DNA of 64,000 nt from Rhodobacteraceae bacterium Alg231-30 (GTDB taxonomy: Bacteria > Pseudomonadota > Alphaproteobacteria > Rhodobacterales > Rhodobacteraceae): the NCBI GenBank assembly GCA_900143615.1, contig FREU01000004.1, positions 186,001 to 250,000 on the forward strand, given 5' to 3'. A program made the position numbers and the translations under genes. Of this stretch, positions 23,054 to 31,937 are shown piece after piece. Every line of letters begins with the position of its first letter. Positions within the stretch are counted from its first letter, which is position 1. The notes under the pieces were generated by a model. The model was given only the letters and a program-made list of their open reading frames with translations. It did no database searches and had not been told where the DNA came from.

Positions 23054-23932
23054 GTGCAGGGCATCCTGCTGTCAAAGACATGGAGGCGCCCAATCTCTGC
23101 ATTGGCAAAATACGAAGAACCTGCACCACAGGCCGCGCAACCGCGCGCCCGTGGTACTGCGCTGTTGCAAAGCAAGCTTAGAGGAACCGCCAGCGTTTTG
23201 GACGACTTCCGACTGTCCGGCTCAAGTCGCGTTCTATTCCCGAAACGGGCAGATCAAACGCTCGAAGCAGTACTTCTCAACACATCTGGCGGGCTGACTG
23301 GCGGAGATGTTTTTGCCACTGAAATCATTGCTGGCGAAAACAGCCACTTGATTATGACAACCCAAGCGGCCGAACGCGCTTACTGCAGCAACGACATCCA
23401 GCCCGCGCGCGTGCGCACAAACCTGACCCTCAAAGCTGGTTCCAAGCTGGACTGGCTCCCACAGGAAACCATCTTGTTTGAGGGCTCTTCAATAGATCGC
23501 GAGCTTTCCATCGATATGGCATCTGACGCACGGCTTTTGCTGGTTGAGCCGATGATTTTTGGCCGCTTGGCCATGGGAGAAACCCTGCGCCAAGCAAACC
23601 TCTTTGATCGCATTTCATTGCGGCGCGATGGCAAACTAGAGTTTGTTGACCGCGTCCGGCTATCCGGCGACATCCACGCGCAACTGGACCGAACCGCCAT
23701 AGCGACCGGTGCACGCGCCATGGCCTCAGTTTTGATCGCAAGCCCTGATGCCGAACGTCATCTCGATCCGCTTCGCGCACTTCTACCACCATCGTGCGGC
23801 GCGTCCCTGATACAAGACGGCCTGCTGTTTGCCCGCCTGCTGGCCGTGGATAGCCACGCGCTGCGCCAAATTCTCATTCCCGCATTGCGCCTTTTGCGTG
23901 GTGCCGACCTCCCCCGAACATGGATGCTTTAA
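23054..23932 (+). CDS. ureD: Urease accessory protein UreD
   Basis: 292 residues from a GTG at 23054. The start is uncertain: no ribosome binding site is visible there, family proteins usually begin closer to QPRARGTALL (near residue 30), and an in-frame TTG at 23102 is possible. Family motifs: SGSSRVLFPKR, LLNTSGGLTGGD, TTQAAERAYCS and WLPQETILFEGSS. UreD, with UreF and UreG, forms the complex that inserts nickel into apo-urease. First gene of the urease cluster; it ends three bases before ureA. Confidence 0.93.
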   Translation: MQGILLSKTWRRPISALAKYEEPAPQAAQPRARGTALLQSKLRGTASVLDDFRLSGSSRVLFPKRADQTLEAVLLNTSGGLTGGDVFATEIIAGENSHLIMTTQAAERAYCSNDIQPARVRTNLTLKAGSKLDWLPQETILFEGSSIDRELSIDMASDARLLLVEPMIFGRLAMGETLRQANLFDRISLRRDGKLEFVDRVRLSGDIHAQLDRTAIATGARAMASVLIASPDAERHLDPLRALLPPSCGASLIQDGLLFARLLAVDSHALRQILIPALRLLRGADLPRTWML

Positions 23933-23935
23933 AAG

Positions 23936-24238
23936 ATGCAACTGACCCCGCGTGAAAAGGACAAACTGCTGATTGCCATGGCTGCCGAAGTGGCGCGCAA
24001 ACGCCTCGCGCGTGGCGTGAAGCTCAACCATCCCGAAGCCATCGCTCTGATCACGGATGCCGTTGTTGAAGGCGCACGCGACGGGCGCTCGGTGGCCGAT
24101 ATGATGCAAGCTGGCGCTCAAGTGATCAACCGCGACCAATGCATGGAAGGCATCGCTGAGATGATCCATGAAGTTCAGGTCGAAGCCACCTTTCCGGACG
24201 GCACCAAACTGGTGACCGTGCACAATCCCATTCGCTAA
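23936..24238 (+). CDS. ureA: Urease subunit gamma
   Basis: 100 residues, full length for the family. Typical [20 protein letters not shown] start, [13 protein letters not shown], and [18 protein letters not shown] end. It is the smallest of the three structural subunits of cytoplasmic nickel urease. Transcribed right after ureD. In this cluster it is separated from ureB by a small membrane protein gene. Confidence 0.97.
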
Positions 24239-24289
24239 TTCCAAAATACACGGGTCACGCACCCGAAAAATGACCTGAAGGAGACCACT

Positions 24290-24454
24290 ATGTTCCGCCT
24301 CGCCACACCAGCCTTGATGCTCATGTCCACACCGGTTTTGGCGCATTCTGGCCCGCACATGCACCCCCATGCCAATGACCCGATGTGGATCCAGCTTCTC
24401 GTTGGCACATTGGTTGTGGCCGCCTTGGGCTATCTGGTCTGGACGCGCCAATGA
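24290..24454 (+). CDS. 54-residue His-rich exported/membrane protein inside the urease operon
   Basis: ATG at 24290 with AAGGAG eight bases upstream; stop TGA at 24452-24454 overlaps the ureB start (ATGA). The protein has a signal-like N-terminus (2-18, ending VLA), then [12 protein letters not shown] with four His, then a transmembrane helix (about 32-51). With its tight coupling to ureB this is clearly a real gene. A His-rich periplasmic segment in an operon for a nickel enzyme suggests metal binding or delivery, which is inference. No named family is recognised. Confidence 0.8.
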
Positions 24455-24759
24455 TACCGGGGGAACTCTTTGCGGCAGACGGAGACCTGACGCTCAATGA
24501 AGGCGCGACGGTAACCACCTTGATGGTTGCCAACACCGGAGATCGCCCAATTCAGGTAGGCAGTCACTATCACTTTGCCGAAACCAATCCTGCGCTCGAT
24601 TTTGATCGCACGGCTGCCACAGGCCAACGGCTTGATATTGCCGCAGGCACTGCTGTGCGCTTTGAACCCGGGCAACGCCGCGAAGTGGCGCTGATCCCGA
24701 TCTCCGGCGCCCGCCGGATCTATGGCTTCAATCAAAAGGTCATGGGCCCCCTTTCATGA
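24451..24759 (+). CDS. ureB: Urease subunit beta
   Basis: 102 residues from the ATG at 24451, giving the canonical MIPGEL start; the open frame extends back to 24385 but that stretch is the His-rich protein in another frame. Family motifs: [34 protein letters not shown] and [10 protein letters not shown]. It builds the urease trimer with UreA and UreC. It overlaps the small membrane protein gene by four bases and is followed 28 bases later by the Lys/Ala/Pro-rich protein gene. Confidence 0.97.
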
Positions 24760-24787: not shown

Positions 24788-25363
24788 ATGCCACCTTTAG
24801 TGACAACCCCGATGACAGCTTCCATCAACAGCTTTGTTCTATTCTCACATTTGTTTGAGCGCCAATTGCGTCTGGCCTATGCGATGAGCAACGCCATGTT
24901 GGACGCCACGCCTTTTGGCGCACGCACGCCTGATGCACCTGTTCCTGTCACCCGCAAAAAGGCAGCCTCCAAAAAGCCCGCTGCGCGCAAATCAGTCTCG
25001 GCACCCAAAGTCACAGCCGTCAAGAAAACAACCGTAGCCTCAACACGCAAAAGCCCCCCACCCAAGGCGGCAAATACACAGCCCGCAGCAGTAAAAGCCG
25101 CGCCAGAACCTGCGATCAAAGTAAAACCAGCGGCCAAGAAGTCGGTCGCCGCGCCAAAACCCAAAACAGTTCCCGTTGCCGACACGATAAAGGCCAAGCC
25201 AAGTAAAAAGGTTGCCGCCCCCGCCCCAAAAGTCGAGGCGGCCAAGCCAAAAGCTGCGGTTTCCGAGCCGGCCACAACAAAGCCGACACCGCGTAAACGA
25301 ACGCGTCAGCCGTCCACACCGCCGATCTTGCCTACCAAAGGTAGCCCCAAGTCCAAAACCTGA
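24788..25363 (+). CDS. Lys/Ala/Pro-rich low-complexity protein inside the urease operon
   Basis: 191 residues from the ATG at 24788, chosen for its GAGGAG ribosome binding site (24776-24781); the frame runs back to 24722 inside ureB. Residues about 12-40 form a likely amphipathic helix (FVLFSHLFERQLRLAYAMSNA). From residue 50 to the end the chain is made of Lys, Ala, Pro, Ser and Thr with repeated KKPAA/KPAAKK-like units. This resembles the tails of bacterial histone H1-like proteins or of some phasins. The whole gene sits between ureB and ureC. No function can be assigned. Confidence 0.75.
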   Translation: MPPLVTTPMTASINSFVLFSHLFERQLRLAYAMSNAMLDATPFGARTPDAPVPVTRKKAASKKPAARKSVSAPKVTAVKKTTVASTRKSPPPKAANTQPAAVKAAPEPAIKVKPAAKKSVAAPKPKTVPVADTIKAKPSKKVAAPAPKVEAAKPKAAVSEPATTKPTPRKRTRQPSTPPILPTKGSPKSKT

Positions 25364-25444: not shown

Positions 25445-27181
25445 ATGCCCGCCAAAATTTCCCGCCACGACTACGCTGCCATGTTTGGCCCCACCACTGG
25501 CGATAAACTGCGTCTGGCCGACACAGATTTGATTATCGAGGTCGAACAGGATCTTACAGCGCTCAAGGCTGGGCAAAACACGCCAATGTATGGCGAAGAA
25601 GTCAAATTCGGCGGCGGCAAAGTCATCCGCGACGGCATGGGCCAAGCCCAAACCACTCGCGCCGAAGGGGCTGTGGACACCGTCATTACCAATGCGCTGA
25701 TTGTTGACCACACCGGCATCTACAAGGCGGATGTGGGTCTGAAAAACGGGCGCATCGCAAAAATTGGCAAGGCGGGCAATCCGGACACCCAACCCGGTGT
25801 CGACATTATTGTCGGACCCGGCACCGAAGCCATCGCAGGCGAAGGCAAAATTCTCACAGCCGGTGGTTTTGACAGCCACATTCATTTCATTTGCCCGCAA
25901 CAGATCGAGGATGCTCTGCATTCGGGCCTCACCACCATGTTAGGCGGCGGCACTGGCCCCGCGCACGGCACACTCGCCACCACGTGCACTCCTGGACCTT
26001 GGCACATTGGTCGCATGCTGCAATCCGCAGATGCCTTCCCGATGAACCTCGCCTTTGCAGGCAAGGGAAACGCCTCGCTTCCGGCAGCACTTGAAGAACA
26101 AGTCAAAGGTGGCGCCTGTGCGCTCAAGCTGCACGAAGACTGGGGCACCACCCCTGCGGCCATCGATTGCTGCCTTTCCGTCGCAGATGCGATGGATGTG
26201 CAGGTGATGATCCACACTGATACGCTCAATGAATCCGGCTTTGTCGAAAACACCGTTGCTGCCATGAAGGGCCGCACCATCCACGCCTTCCACACCGAAG
26301 GCGCCGGTGGCGGCCATGCACCTGACATCATCAAAATCTGTGGCGAAGAACATGTGTTGCCGTCGTCCACCAACCCGACGCGGCCGTTTACGGTCAACAC
26401 GGTGGACGAACACCTCGACATGCTGATGGTCTGCCACCATCTGGACAAATCCATCCCCGAGGACGTCGCCTTTGCCGAAAGCCGCATCCGGCGCGAAACC
26501 ATCGCTGCCGAAGACATCCTGCACGACATGGGCGCGTTTTCGATCATCGCCTCGGATAGTCAGGCCATGGGCCGCGTCGGCGAAGTGCTGATCCGCACGT
26601 GGCAGACCGCCGATAAGATGAAGAAACAACGTGGGCGCTTGGCCGAGGAAACTGGCGAGAACGACAACTACCGTGTGCGCCGCTATATCGCCAAATACAC
26701 CATCAATCCCGCAATTGCGCACGGCCTCAGCCAAGAGATCGGCAGCATTGAAGAAGGCAAGCGCGCGGACTTGGTACTCTGGAATCCAGCGTTCTTTGGC
26801 GTAAAGCCGGAAATGGTGCTGATCGGCGGCTCGATTGTTTGCGCCCAAATGGGGGATCCGAACGCCTCGATCCCAACCCCGCAACCGGTCTATTCCCGTC
26901 CGATGTTTGGCGCCTATGGTCGCGCGGTGGAAAACTCTGCGGTGGTCTTTGTCTCCGAGGCGGCCCAAGCAGACAATATCGGCAACACTCTGGGGCTGGC
27001 CAAACAGACCATAGCTGTCCAGAATACCCGTCAGATTGGCAAGTCCGACCTACGCCTGAACGACGCCACTCCCGAAATCGAGGTCAATCCAGAGACCTAT
27101 GAGGTACGCGCCGACGGTGAACTCTTGACCTGTCAGCCTGCCGAAGTGCTGCCCATGGCGCAGCGCTACTTCATGTTTTGA
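25445..27181 (+). CDS. ureC: Urease subunit alpha (catalytic)
   Basis: 578 residues. All nickel ligands are visible: H145, H147, the carbamylated K228, H257, H283 and D371, with substrate-contact H230 and catalytic-flap H331. Each sits 11 positions later than in Klebsiella urease. Most of the shift is an extra stretch of about ten residues around 39-48 ([10 protein letters not shown]), just before [10 protein letters not shown]. It hydrolyses urea to ammonia and carbamate. The 81-bp gap before it contains the site AGAGG. It is followed by the small exported protein gene 15 bases later. Confidence 0.98.
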
Positions 27182-27196
27182 CCCTTCGGAGACCCT

Positions 27197-27784
27197 ATGC
27201 GCGCCCTGTTTTTCCTAACGACCCTGCTGGCTTCGCCAACATGGGCAGACTGCCCGTCCCAAGCTGATCTACGCCACGGAATCCGCTTGACCGACACTGA
27301 CGGCGGCAGCGAGGTTTTTCAACGGCATGACCAGTATTTCGTCCGAGTCACCTATGACGACGGTGACGGCTTTGGTGCGCAGTATCTGTTGCTCAAAGGG
27401 ATTTACGTCGTCGAAGTTTTTGACTTGGAAAATGGTGATAGCGTCCCCGGGACACGTATCACACACGCCTATCCGCTCAAACCCGCTCTCGCGCCGCTAC
27501 CCGTTGCTGGCGGCAGCTGGGACACCGAAGTGATCACATTGGATCAGGGCGAGGTACTTAATGGCGCGGAAAGCTATCGATTTGGTGCGCACACACAGGC
27601 GACAATCGGCGGATGCAGCTACGAAATGCTCAAAATTACGGCAGTTTATCACGACGACGACGGGTACACAGAGACTCTTAACTATCTTCCAGAGCTCGGA
27701 ATTTCTTATCTAGTGGAGAGCCGCGAAGCCAGTGATCCTTTAGAAACATACACTTACACCTATGTCCGCATAGAAGCAGAATAA
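27197..27784 (+). CDS. Exported protein of unknown function following ureC
   Basis: 195 residues with a signal peptide (about 1-17, MRALFFLTTLLASPTWA) and Cys at 19 and about 135. The mature part is rich in Asp, Glu, Tyr and Thr with predicted beta strands. I recognise no family. A GGAG ribosome binding site precedes the ATG, and the gene starts 15 bases after the ureC stop, so it is part of the urease transcript. The 129-bp gap after it and the palindrome in that gap suggest that the first transcript unit may end here. Confidence 0.7.
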   Translation: MRALFFLTTLLASPTWADCPSQADLRHGIRLTDTDGGSEVFQRHDQYFVRVTYDDGDGFGAQYLLLKGIYVVEVFDLENGDSVPGTRITHAYPLKPALAPLPVAGGSWDTEVITLDQGEVLNGAESYRFGAHTQATIGGCSYEMLKITAVYHDDDGYTETLNYLPELGISYLVESREASDPLETYTYTYVRIEAE

Positions 27785-28175: not shown

Positions 28176-28679
28176 ATGACTGCGTTGCTCACCGCCCGGA
28201 CCTATCACAATCACGCCCACGCCCCAGAAATGGGGCGCGTGGCGCTCTCCTACGAAGACCGGTTTCTACGTCGCAAAACGCTGACACTTGAAGATGGAAC
28301 CCGCCTTCTGGTCGATCTCCCCCAAACCACATCTCTGGATCATGGCGGCGTATTGGTTTTGACCGATGGCCGTGAGATTGGCGTTATTGCCGCGCCGGAA
28401 ACTCTCTTGCAGATCACGGCTGAAGATATGACGCGTGTCGCATGGCATGTCGGCAACCGCCACACACCCTGCCAGATCGAAGCCAACAGGCTACTGATCC
28501 AACCCGATCACGTGATTGCCGATATGCTGGCCTTGCTTGGCGCATCAGTCACCGAAGTGACCGAGCCATTTACGCCCGAAGGCGGCGCCTATGGGCATGG
28601 CCGCACACATGGCCACGATCATTCGCATGTGCATGACCACGCACATGATCACAGCCACGACCACCAACATGACCACTGA
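28176..28679 (+). CDS. ureE: Urease accessory protein UreE (nickel chaperone)
   Basis: 167 residues from the ATG at 28176 (AAAGGGGG upstream); the frame extends back into the DUF1127 gene without support. The N-terminal peptide-binding domain is followed by the metal-binding domain with VAWHVGNRHTPCQIE, and a C-terminal tail with 13 His mixed with Asp, Gly and Ser. UreE stores Ni2+ and passes it to UreG. Its last 11 bases overlap the ureF start inside the His-coding tail. Confidence 0.95.
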   Translation: MTALLTARTYHNHAHAPEMGRVALSYEDRFLRRKTLTLEDGTRLLVDLPQTTSLDHGGVLVLTDGREIGVIAAPETLLQITAEDMTRVAWHVGNRHTPCQIEANRLLIQPDHVIADMLALLGASVTEVTEPFTPEGGAYGHGRTHGHDHSHVHDHAHDHSHDHQHDH

Positions 28680-29313
28680 CCCGATCCTAACTTTGACCCA
28701 ATGGTTATCTCCTGCCTATCCGGTAGGGGCTTTCAGCTACAGCCATGGGCTGGAAACTATGGTGGAACAGGGCGCTGTTACCGATGTCGCCAGCTTTCGG
28801 GACTGGTTGGGGGACATTATTGAACATGGCGCAGGCCACAGCGATGCAATCCTTTTAACCGCCGCCTATAACGCAAATAACAACGATGAATTGGCCGAGA
28901 TCGATGCCTTAGCGCGCGCTTTGGCACCATCGCGCGAACGGCTTCTGGAAACCGACCAACAAGGCGGCGCGTTTGCACGTACCACGGCAGATATCCTTGA
29001 TCTGCCGCTTTTCTCGCTCACCTATCCGGTGGCCGTCGGCCGCGCGGCAAGGCTGCAAGATCTGCCCCTCGCAGAAACCGCGCGTCTGTTTTTACATGCT
29101 TTTGCGGCCAATCTCACCTCGGCGGCGATCCGACTTGTTCCGCTTGGACAAACCGAAGGACAGCTGGCCCTACATCAATTGACACCGCTCTGCCAATCCA
29201 TGGCGGACAAAGCGATCACCGAAACAATTGACGCTATCGGGTCATCTGCATTTGCCGCCGACATCGCGTCGATGAACCACGAAACCCAATATTCAAGGCT
29301 ATTTCGCTCATGA
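28669..29313 (+). CDS. ureF: Urease accessory protein UreF
   Basis: 214 residues from the ATG at 28669, which gives the family start [27 protein letters not shown]; the longer frame upstream only reads the UreE tail in another frame. It is an all-helical protein that bridges UreD and UreG and gates nickel insertion. It overlaps ureE by 11 bases and ureG by four (ATGA at 29310), so E, F and G are translationally coupled. Confidence 0.95.
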
Positions 29314-29948
29314 CTTCTCCAAACGGACCACTTCGTATCGGCATTGGCGGCCCTGTTGGTGCTGGCAAAACGACCCTGACCGCCAATCTCTGCCTTGCGC
29401 TGCGCGACAAGCTGTCGATCGCTGTCGTCACCAACGACATTTACACTCGCGAGGACGCCGAAGAACTGATGCGCCGTCAGGTGTTACCATTGGATCGTAT
29501 CAAGGGTGTCGAAACAGGTGGTTGCCCACACACTGCGATCCGCGAAGATGCCTCGATAAACCTTGCCGCAATTGCCGAACTCAACGCACAGATCCCTGAT
29601 CTCGATGTCGTGCTTATTGAATCTGGCGGCGACAATCTCTCCGCCACTTTTAGTCCGGAACTGGCGGATATCACCATCTATGTAATCGACGTGGCAGCAG
29701 GCGAAGAAATCCCCCGCAAGGGCGGACCCGCGATCACCAAATCCGACATCTTGGTCATCAACAAAACCGATCTCGCCCCCCACGTCGGCGCCTCGCTCGA
29801 GGTCATGGATCGCGACGCCACCCGCATGCGCGCGGGTCGCCCGTTTGTGTTTGCCGCGATGCGCCACAATCAGGGATTGGACAAACTGCTTCCATTGATT
29901 GGTGAAATTGGTGGCCTGCCGGAATTGATGTCTAAGGCTGCAGAATAG
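29310..29948 (+). CDS. ureG: Urease accessory GTPase UreG
   Basis: 212 residues, SIMIBI-class GTPase. P-loop GPVGAGKT at 14-21; nickel-binding CPH in [18 protein letters not shown]; and the NKTDLAP guanine motif. It supplies GTP hydrolysis and nickel for urease maturation. Last gene of the urease cluster; a 76-bp gap with no clear terminator separates it from bioM. Confidence 0.98.
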
Positions 29949-30024
29949 CCCATCGGCCCCAAAGCGCCTTCTCTCCCTGCACGCTTTGCGTTATCAGCGC
30001 GCAAGCTCGTGTCAGGGGGATTCC

Positions 30025-30699
30025 ATGATTGAAATTCGCAATGTCAGTCACAGTTTTGGCGACCAGCCCATTCTGCATGACATTTCACTCACGCTCTCTG
30101 AACGCCGCATCGCTATTGTTGGCGCAAACGGCTCGGGAAAATCCACCTTTGCGCGCCTACTCAACGGCCTCTTGCTGCCCACGTCAGGCGAAGTGCTTGT
30201 TGATGGCATAAACACCGAAAAAGACGGCAAACACGTGCGCGCCAAAGTTGGTTTTGTGTTTCAGAACCCCGACAATCAAATTGTGTTTCCAGTGGTCGAA
30301 GAAGACCTTGCCTTTGGCATGAAAAACCTCGGATTTTCCAAAGAAACGATCGAGGAAAAAACCGTCGAAATCCTTACGCGCTATGACATGAACCATTTGC
30401 GAGAGCATCCCGCCCATCTGTTGTCCGGCGGCCAGAAACAGCTGCTCGCCATCGCGGGCGTACTGGTCATGGATCCCGCTTATCTTGTACTGGACGAACC
30501 CACGACCTTATTGGACTTGCGCAATAAACGTCGCGTTGCCGCCGCGCTGGACGCTTTGGAGCAAACCGTTATCTTGGCCAGCCATGATCTTGACCTGATT
30601 GCGGATTACGATCGCGTTCTGGTTTTTGAAAATGGCCAAGTCGTCATCGATGATGTGCCGACCAATGCGATCCCCGCTTATGAAAAGCTGATGTCCTGA
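30025..30699 (+). CDS. bioM: Energy-coupling-factor ATPase for biotin uptake (BioM)
   Basis: 224 residues from the ATG at 30025 (AGGGGG upstream). Walker [10 protein letters not shown] near 34-42, Q-loop [12 protein letters not shown], signature [11 protein letters not shown], Walker B YLVLDEP and the H-loop SHDLD. The QNPDNQ form is typical of ECF transporter ATPases. With the next two genes it forms BioMNY, which imports biotin. It overlaps bioN by one base (TGATG). The substrate is inferred from bioY. Confidence 0.92.
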
Positions 30700-31295
30700 T
30701 GCTGGATATGTACTCCCCTGGCACCTCGGTTCTGCACCGTTTGACACCCGGCCCGAAAATCTTCGCCCTGATGGGGCTAGGCACGGCGCTTTTCCTGACG
30801 GAAAGTACCTATGTCGTCGCCGGTGCCCTGATGTGTGTGCTTGCGCTTTATCGGCTGGCAGCGCTCTCGCTGCGTCAGGTATGGAACCAAATCCGCCCCG
30901 TATTGTGGCTACTCATCCTATTTTTCGCGCTGCAATGGTGGCTAAGTGGCCCAATGCTGGCCGCCTTCGTGGTCTTACGCCTTGCAACGCTTTTGTTGCT
31001 GGCCGGTCTTGTGACATTGACCAGTCGCGCTAGCGACATGATCGACGCGATATCGCATGGTCTGAAATTCCTGCGCCCTATCGGCGTAAATCCCGCCAAA
31101 GTTGGTCTCGCGATTTCCCTGACCCTGCGCTTTATTCCGGTCTTGGCACAGGTGACCGCCGAAGTCAGAGAAGCCCAGAAGGTGCGCGGATTAGAGCGCT
31201 CAGTGATCGCGCTTGCACTTCCTGTTGCAATCAGGACGTTAAAAATGGCCGAAGATATTTCTGACGCGATCGATGCCCGAGGATTTAAATCTTAA
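30699..31295 (+). CDS. bioN: Energy-coupling-factor transmembrane protein (BioN)
   Basis: 198 residues with about five transmembrane segments. The two coupling motifs of T-components are visible: AQKVRG near 162-167 and DARGFKS at the very C-terminus. It links the ATPase BioM to the substrate-binding BioY in the inner membrane. It is slightly short for the family, as is usual for BioN. It overlaps bioM by one base and is followed by a 105-bp gap before bioY. Confidence 0.92.
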   Translation: MLDMYSPGTSVLHRLTPGPKIFALMGLGTALFLTESTYVVAGALMCVLALYRLAALSLRQVWNQIRPVLWLLILFFALQWWLSGPMLAAFVVLRLATLLLLAGLVTLTSRASDMIDAISHGLKFLRPIGVNPAKVGLAISLTLRFIPVLAQVTAEVREAQKVRGLERSVIALALPVAIRTLKMAEDISDAIDARGFKS

Positions 31296-31400
31296 AATTT
31301 AACTAACGAAACGTATTTCTTGCTTTTGTGCAAGTGCAGCATTACCACCTGCAAAATCCTCCACGTTGCCGCTCAAAACGCACAGAAGGAAACGCGCACT

Positions 31401-31937
31401 ATGAATACCAAGAGCATCGTCTATATCGCTCTTTTTGCTGCCCTCACGGCGGCGCTCGGACTTTTCCCACCGGTCGCCTTTGCTGGCCTTGGCCTGCCGC
31501 CAATTACTGCGCAATCGCTGGGCGTTATGCTCGCAGGTGCCATCTTGGGCGCAAGACGCGGTGCTCTGGCCATGTTGCTGTTCGTGGTCCTTGTCGCAGT
31601 TGGCTTGCCACTGCTATCTGGCGGACGCGGCGGATTTGGCGTTTTCCTCAGCGGATCCGGTGGCTTCCTTCTGGCTTGGCCGCTCTCGGCCTATGTGATC
31701 GGCTGGTTGCTGCAGCGCTACAAAGGCGCCAATTTCGCCATGCAATGCCTGTTTGTCTCCTACGGTGGTATTCTTGTGATGTATGCGATCGGCGTTCCAT
31801 GGATGGCCGTCATCGCCAAGCTGGAACTCAGCAAGGCCATGACAATCATGCTCGCCTACATTCCAGGAGATCTCATCAAAGTGGTCATTGCGACAATCAT
31901 CGCGCGCGGCGTACGTAAAGCGCTGCCAAACATCTAG
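31401..31937 (+). CDS. bioY: Biotin transporter BioY
   Basis: 178 residues from the ATG at 31401; the frame starts at 31320 but the added part is not membrane-like. Six hydrophobic segments and the BioY motifs GLPPITAQSLGVMLAGAILG and GLPLLSGGRGGFGVFLSGSGGFLLAWP are complete. It binds biotin for the ECF module BioMN. AAGGAA precedes the start. It is followed by an acyl-CoA ligase gene six bases later, so transport and ligase genes are one transcript. No BioR-type TTAT-N2-ATAA palindrome was seen upstream. Confidence 0.96.
   Translation: MNTKSIVYIALFAALTAALGLFPPVAFAGLGLPPITAQSLGVMLAGAILGARRGALAMLLFVVLVAVGLPLLSGGRGGFGVFLSGSGGFLLAWPLSAYVIGWLLQRYKGANFAMQCLFVSYGGILVMYAIGVPWMAVIAKLELSKAMTIMLAYIPGDLIKVVIATIIARGVRKALPNI

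Follow-up and report, generated by a model that had tools for sequence, protein, structure and literature searches.

CbtB, CbiN and NikN are small, membrane-bound parts of cobalt and nickel transporters, and subunits of the CbiN/NikN type work together with a CbiM/NikM core. N-terminal-His domains are reported to bind copper and nickel, as described for the Anglerases Ang-1 and Ang-2, which are fused to HupE/UreJ-2 (PF13795). Ang-1, studied from a bacterium of the Rhodobacteraceae, is stated to bind copper more tightly than nickel (Kd about 74 versus 220 nM), and a preference for copper at the N-terminal-His site is given for both Ang-1 and Ang-2 (PMC12537917). Homologues of hupE/ureJ are reported from 90% of the examined Roseobacter genomes (PMC4771312). 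An open problem, approached here from a small gene in a urease cluster, is the means by which cells steer scarce nickel to the enzyme that requires it.

The window analysed is a stretch of 64,000 nucleotides from Rhodobacteraceae bacterium Alg231-30 (contig FREU01000004.1, positions 186,001 to 250,000) and contains a urease cluster in the order ureD-ureA-[small gene]-ureB-ureC-ureE-ureF-ureG (Table 1). A scan for promoters and terminators gave no excess over shuffled sequences. Between ureB and ureC lies a 191-aa frame rich in Ala, Lys and Pro (24788-25363, plus strand), with a 34% identical relative in the same place in a genome of the same genus (G210), and a frame of 195 aa whose start is signal-like is found between ureC and ureE (27197-27784, plus strand); neither window frame matched Pfam or NCBIfam. 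Downstream of ureG (30022-31937, plus strand) are genes for an ECF ATPase, for a CbiQ-like T component and for BioY, which together suggest an importer of biotin and not of nickel.

Table 1. Urease genes of the window and parts of the small gene (window coordinates).
Feature	Position	Strand	Basis or remark
ureD	23054..23932	+	PF01774, E 6.6e-48
ureA	23936..24238	+	PF00547, E 2.1e-47
AAGGAG, likely ribosome-binding site of the small gene	24278..24283	+	Direct sequence reading; 6 nt ahead of ATG
Small gene, 54 aa	24290..24454	+	Stop included in coordinates; homologues found
Signal peptide, residues 1-18, predicted cut after VLA	24290..24343	+	Sequence pattern and A18-H19 conservation
His segment [12 protein letters not shown], residues 19-30, predicted mature N-terminus	24344..24379	+	Conserved His19, His23, His25, His27
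Predicted membrane helix, residues 32-53	24383..24448	+	AlphaFold2 helix
ATGA overlap, ureB start and small-gene stop	24451..24454	+	Same 4-nt overlap in 93/99 members
ureB	24451..24759	+	PF00699, E 1.5e-44
ureC	25445..27181	+	PF00449 and PF01979
ureE	28176..28679	+	PF02814 and PF05194
ureF	28669..29313	+	PF01730, E 6.4e-37; start chosen by us, open frame from 28591
ureG	29310..29948	+	PF02492, E 2.6e-40; named UreG from its place in the cluster

The original prediction described a protein of 54 residues with a signal-like segment, a His-rich stretch and a C-terminal membrane helix, overlapping ureB by four bases. The frame translates as claimed, and read directly from the sequence its TGA (24452-24454) shares the ATGA with the ATG of ureB (24451-24453); the overlap is exactly 4 nt in 93 of 99 distinct urease-type members of the family, which suggests production in step with UreB. 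Signal-like segment, His stretch and helix are borne out as predicted features by sequence pattern, conservation and an AlphaFold2 model made with 32 sequences. For the 54 aa of the window protein the model contained helices and no strands, with a helix at residues 32-53 and pLDDT block means of 91-98 from residue 31 and about 70 before it. At E up to 1 the window protein had no match in NCBIfam and in Pfam matched MitoNEET_N alone, below the cut-off (E 0.036), and a scan of 49 members of the family against family models yielded scattered weak matches and nothing more.

A search with this one sequence in 295 genomes of the Rhodobacteraceae gave matches at E up to 1 in 183 genomes, many probably by chance, and 29 of the 30 best places were between ureA and ureB. 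The same frame with its His residues, which the original prediction expected in this position elsewhere in the Rhodobacteraceae, is thus widely present. Among 30 aligned members, His23, His25 and His27 were invariant and His19, Gly21 and Pro26 at least 90% conserved. Across nine pairs of closely similar members (at least 62% identical) dN/dS was 0.14-0.27, and the small protein itself is therefore under purifying selection. Predicted residue 1 of the mature protein was His in 113 and Asp in three of 116 distinct members (99 urease-type, 17 guanidine hydrolase), a count that is partly by construction since the cleavage pattern admitted His or Asp only and the named and guanidine sets were chosen by a rule needing H, D, Q or E directly after A (or S). 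The first 63 members were chosen on size and hydrophobicity, with the A-H or A-D junction used only to pick among starts, and comprised 59 with His, three with Asp and one (L035) that had no site by the narrower pattern but had an S-H junction; they were 49-79 aa long with one helix after the His segment. An HxH motif occurred within residues 2-16 in 107 of the 116 members and HPH in 76; 106 had a basic tail, with two or more of the seven C-terminal residues being Lys or Arg. Members poor in His were also seen, L103 with one His in the segment and L300, L286 and L145 lacking HxH. The guanidine-hydrolase set used 17 of 19 members, L215 and L216 being left out of the dN/dS and anatomy counts, and three two-helix frames of 90-100 aa (L106, L129, L159) were excluded by hand from the member counts. 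A small sample of 55 genomes from across the phylum, 41 of them outside the class, gave matches in two class members, the window genome and G481. No description of this small protein was found in searches of open-licence full-text papers. That these genes constitute a real and previously undescribed family of small proteins we regard as practically certain.

The slot between ureA and ureB was surveyed starting from UreB and not from the small gene, to avoid selection by the latter. UreB was found in 230 of the 295 genomes at E up to 1e-6, and 70 Rhodobacteraceae ureB loci were read, namely the 30 best UreB matches and 40 hand-picked among the matches listed. The slot held the small gene in 35 of these, full-length UreJ in six, two-helix frames of 90-100 aa in three and other frames in two; 23 were empty (an ureA-ureB gap under 130 nt) and one was unreadable. 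For the 40 hand-picked slots alone the numbers were 12, four, two, two, 19 and one. In one of the 35, L147, the small gene shares a gap of 994 nt with other frames. A second collection, overlapping the first in species, was read for the best 80 of 559 confirmed loci, with the small gene in 41, UreJ in 13, an empty slot in 23, another content in one and no ureA within the stretch in two. Outside the family, 40 loci of the class (one per family, hand-chosen, with fused and contig-edge frames skipped) had the small gene in three cases, an empty slot in 36 and a gap of 176 nt with no such frame in one, and a profile search yielded five more outside-family loci. Where UreJ occupied the slot, it filled a gap of 557-636 nt in 18 of 19 cases, leaving no room there for both UreJ and the small gene; the remaining gap was 1245 nt. 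The 23 empty slots among the 70 imply that urease can work without the small gene.

Other occupants of the slot were of several kinds. The 90-100-aa frames of L106, L129 and L159 (genomes G230, G072 and G221) encode a different protein with two hydrophobic stretches. L153 and L156 (G018 and G050) have frames of 143 and 187 aa, similar to each other and with the same 4-nt overlap with ureB, which look like HD-type hydrolases. The urease genes of Rhizobium meliloti were reportedly described in 1994 as interrupted by other frames. A cyanase gene is reported between ureA and ureB in Acidihalobacter (PMC9062700), so the slot accepts other genes too.

The exception among the 30 best places was L014 in genome G259, which is not a urease slot. 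Upstream of this member are an ABC transporter, an enzyme of the agmatinase family and a His-rich protein of 155 aa, and the small gene overlaps the stop of the His-rich gene by 4 nt. The binding protein of the transporter matches TIGR03427, "putative urea ABC transporter". The best PDB matches of the enzyme were 7ESR and 7OI1 (518 bits) and 9FEK (499 bits), the next reaching 175 bits; 7OI1 is GdmH of Synechocystis and 9FEK the guanidinase of N. inopinata, described with one Ni and one Mn per subunit (PMC11410670). Judged by these matches, the enzyme of G259 is a predicted close relative of the nickel guanidine hydrolases. Close relatives of it (E up to 1e-80) were present in 43 of the 295 family genomes, and the window genome had none. 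Of the 30 best enzyme loci, one stops at the enzyme itself; the other 29 all have the His-rich protein behind the enzyme, and 19 of them have the small gene as well. In the ten loci with no small gene, a search for UreJ as its substitute gave no match. The His-rich protein (L031:10221-10688, minus strand, in G259; L192-L221 except L207) has a very His-rich start and found no counterpart in NCBIfam at E up to 0.001 or, above the cut-off, in Pfam; it is a candidate nickel chaperone for the guanidine-hydrolase relative. The nickel loading of guanidine hydrolase is called unclear in comammox bacteria (PMC11410670), and the small protein and the neighbouring His-rich protein are candidate accessory factors for it.

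Specificity for these two operon types was examined with a profile of 49 members in 80 hand-chosen family genomes, which gave 46 matches in 42 genomes. All 36 matches with E up to 3.2e-7 were in urease (31) or guanidine-hydrolase (5) operons, as placed by fetched loci (28 and one), by loci read earlier (six) and by coordinates beside UreB (one); the profile was built from members of the same two operon types and is biased toward them, but the search itself is blind to position. The single-sequence search that preceded it gave the same operon picture. Among the ten weakest of the 46 matches, two were in urease and one in guanidine-hydrolase operons, and the other seven comprised one DUF6732 protein, one ATP synthase b-type subunit and one His-rich ZrgA-like protein (the last two by eye) and four with no assigned identity.

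A 52-aa member was also found in thirteen Sulfitobacter plasmid records. The five that were read, all from one genus and identical in gene order, contain genes for a lactate racemase domain protein, the LarC nickel insertion protein, LysR, an SDR on the other strand, a 3-hydroxyacyl-CoA dehydrogenase and a 3-keto-5-aminohexanoate cleavage protein, followed by the small gene. The end of larC is about 3.5 kb upstream of the small gene with an opposite-strand gene between them, and a shared operon is therefore unlikely; the larC neighbourhood is a third context, weaker than the urease and guanidine-hydrolase contexts. The expectation that annotation programs miss the gene because of its size did not hold in these records, where it is annotated as "hypothetical protein" in one and as "peptidase M23" in twelve (H3-H14), the latter label being surely wrong for a protein of 52 aa.

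The original prediction proposed a nickel-uptake accessory. Its nickel part gained from the presence of the family in the guanidine-hydrolase operon and of UreJ in the same slot elsewhere, and we consider a functional link of the small gene to nickel likely. Uptake as such was not singled out, since a protein that stores, buffers or senses metal at the membrane would be an equally good fit. On balance, and with less assurance than for the nickel link, we favour the reading in which the small protein would be a nickel bait for nickel supply, with an N-terminal His facing the periplasm. The protein would be exported and its signal peptide cut so that His becomes residue 1; one helix would anchor it in the inner membrane with the His segment in the periplasm and the end in the cytoplasm. 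Ligands for Ni(II) would be the imidazoles of HxHPH plus the free amine and the imidazole of His1, in the manner of the Anglerases, the bait being a separate, minimal peptide rather than a domain fused to a permease. In the least certain step, the peptide would pass nickel on to a permease, and supply would thereby increase in parallel with the enzyme requiring it. The absence of the small gene from 23 of the 70 slots and from ten of the 29 guanidine-hydrolase loci speaks against this reading as a whole, as do the members poor in His (L103, L300, L286 and L145).

A permease partner was sought by co-occurrence in a panel of 52 hand-chosen genomes and four families (UreJ/HupE, HupE/UreJ-2, NicO and CbiM). 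Strong UreJ/HupE proteins (E below 1e-17) were present in three of 24 genomes with the small gene, in all six with UreJ in the slot, in five of 18 with an empty slot and in one of four others. HupE/UreJ-2 exceeded the cut-off in 21 of 24, two of six, 16 of 18 (one a broken fragment) and two of four, respectively, and NicO (over the cut-off) and CbiM were each in 12 of the 24 genomes with the small gene. Naming a partner by this means failed, as HupE/UreJ-2 in 21 of 24 genomes with the gene against 16 of 18 with an empty slot gives no separation. Two HupE/UreJ-2 proteins, with scores of 161 and 156 bits, are encoded in the window genome, and their predicted mature ends begin with His (HELDPG and HRFELG). 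NicO and CbiM gave no match there and UreJ none except cross-matches of the two HupE/UreJ-2 proteins, which are the sole good partner candidates among the four families searched. Their presence, together with the prevalence of hupE/ureJ in Roseobacter, points to HupE/UreJ-2 as a likely but unproven partner, and the proposal that the small protein feeds nickel to it is tentative, with less than even odds.

An extension of the nickel bait is possible but somewhat doubtful, in which baits are dedicated to operons. Each nickel-enzyme operon (urease, guanidine hydrolase and perhaps the LarA cluster) would have its own N-terminal-His peptide feeding a shared permease, with capture in step with the apo-enzyme, and a DUF6732 protein beside CbiX, seen in one locus, would be a cobalt version.

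Among the alternatives, two are unlikely to the same degree. In one, the N-terminal segment would never be cut off but remain embedded in the membrane, making the protein a hairpin of two helices around a short His loop; it would then serve a metal importer as an accessory subunit, with CbiN/NikN as the model. All members do have a hydrophobic stretch on either side of the His segment, as follows from the way they were selected, but the pattern of small residues ahead of the conserved A-H junction resembles a cleavage site, and 12 of the 24 panel genomes with the gene, the window genome included, gave no CbiM match. In the other, the peptide would keep copper, zinc or excess nickel away from the apo-enzyme or the uptake route. 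By analogy with the copper preference of Ang-1, and of N-terminal-His sites in Ang-1 and Ang-2 (PMC12537917), the metal could be copper instead; however, no copper gene recurred as a neighbour in the places read, and the strong matches are in nickel operons.

Still less probable is a membrane factor linked to urea or ammonia and not to nickel, for instance an aid to uptake. Urea could be the common thread, as urease consumes it, guanidine hydrolase makes it and the binding protein in the guanidine operon matches a putative urea transporter model, and among the contexts the Sulfitobacter case (one genus, 3.5 kb) is the sole point against such a thread: in the five records inspected, its members neighbour larC and no urea genes. 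The conserved residues are, however, metal ligands, and UreJ, of a nickel permease family, occupies the same slot elsewhere.

That the small protein is a shortened UreJ, a remnant keeping the signal peptide, the N-terminal His and the first helix, is very unlikely. It has the same slot, and L151 and L039, which carry a PDH motif, rank first and second against a model of the UreJ N-terminus. Profile comparison nevertheless matched the signal peptide alone; the mature parts gave an hhalign probability of 0.44%, a value surpassed by several of the 30 controls with shuffled columns (up to 8.15%), the 11.9 bits of L151 in hmmsearch were reached by five of 3150 shuffled sequences, and 13 shuffled controls exceeded 10 bits against one of the 63 members. 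Descent from UreJ was thus rejected, with no support outside the signal peptide in the comparisons with shuffled controls. Finally, an inert product of a leader serving only the translation of ureB, as the exact overlap might suggest, can practically be dismissed in view of the conservation at the protein level (the dN/dS values above) and of the guanidine-hydrolase loci, where the small gene comes after the enzyme and the His-rich gene.

If the nickel-bait reading is true, nickel supply would include an element that is very small, about 36 residues when mature, and simple to test. This protein is found with two nickel enzymes and in the slot that other genomes give to a nickel permease, and it would give meaning to genes now labelled "hypothetical protein" or, falsely, "peptidase M23".

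Compared with the known systems, CbtB, CbiN and NikN have their His residues placed differently from the small protein, and none of them matched the window protein in Pfam (E up to 1). Membership of the CbiN/NikN type is not indicated by the distribution of CbiM, which matched in half of the panel genomes that have the gene (12 of 24) but not in the window genome. DUF6732 (PF20506) is alike in having a signal peptide, HPGH and HGH motifs and one helix. It matched 11 of the 49 members weakly (best E 0.0007) and the Sulfitobacter member at 12.9 bits (cut-off 27), but did not match the protein of the window even at E up to 1. In genome G070 a DUF6732 gene (L342:2405-2632, plus strand, 100.6 bits) has an ATGA overlap with the gene for CbiX, a cobalt chelatase, followed by CbiC; this one locus is a possible cobalt counterpart of the small gene. 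Eight further places fetched by guess yielded no recognisable DUF6732-like frame in seven, the other holding the urease-type member L351; a plasmid search with the G070 protein gave no match, and the name DUF6732 is absent from the open-licence full-text papers searched.

The UreJ/HupE permeases (PF04955) share with the small protein the slot between ureA and ureB, a signal peptide and a His at the predicted mature end, but are about 190 aa long with several helices, compared with 49-79 aa and one helix after the His segment. PF04955 matched neither the window protein (E up to 1) nor the 49 members (E up to 0.1, among the 25 of 26 families listed). With the Anglerases the predicted likeness consists of a His1 straight after the signal peptide and, in the role inferred here, of a periplasmic metal catcher beside a membrane part. 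The Anglerase domain is described as a folded beta-sandwich joined to a permease (PMC12537917), whereas the small protein would present some 12 residues with the extra ligands of HxHPH, on one helix and with no permease attached.
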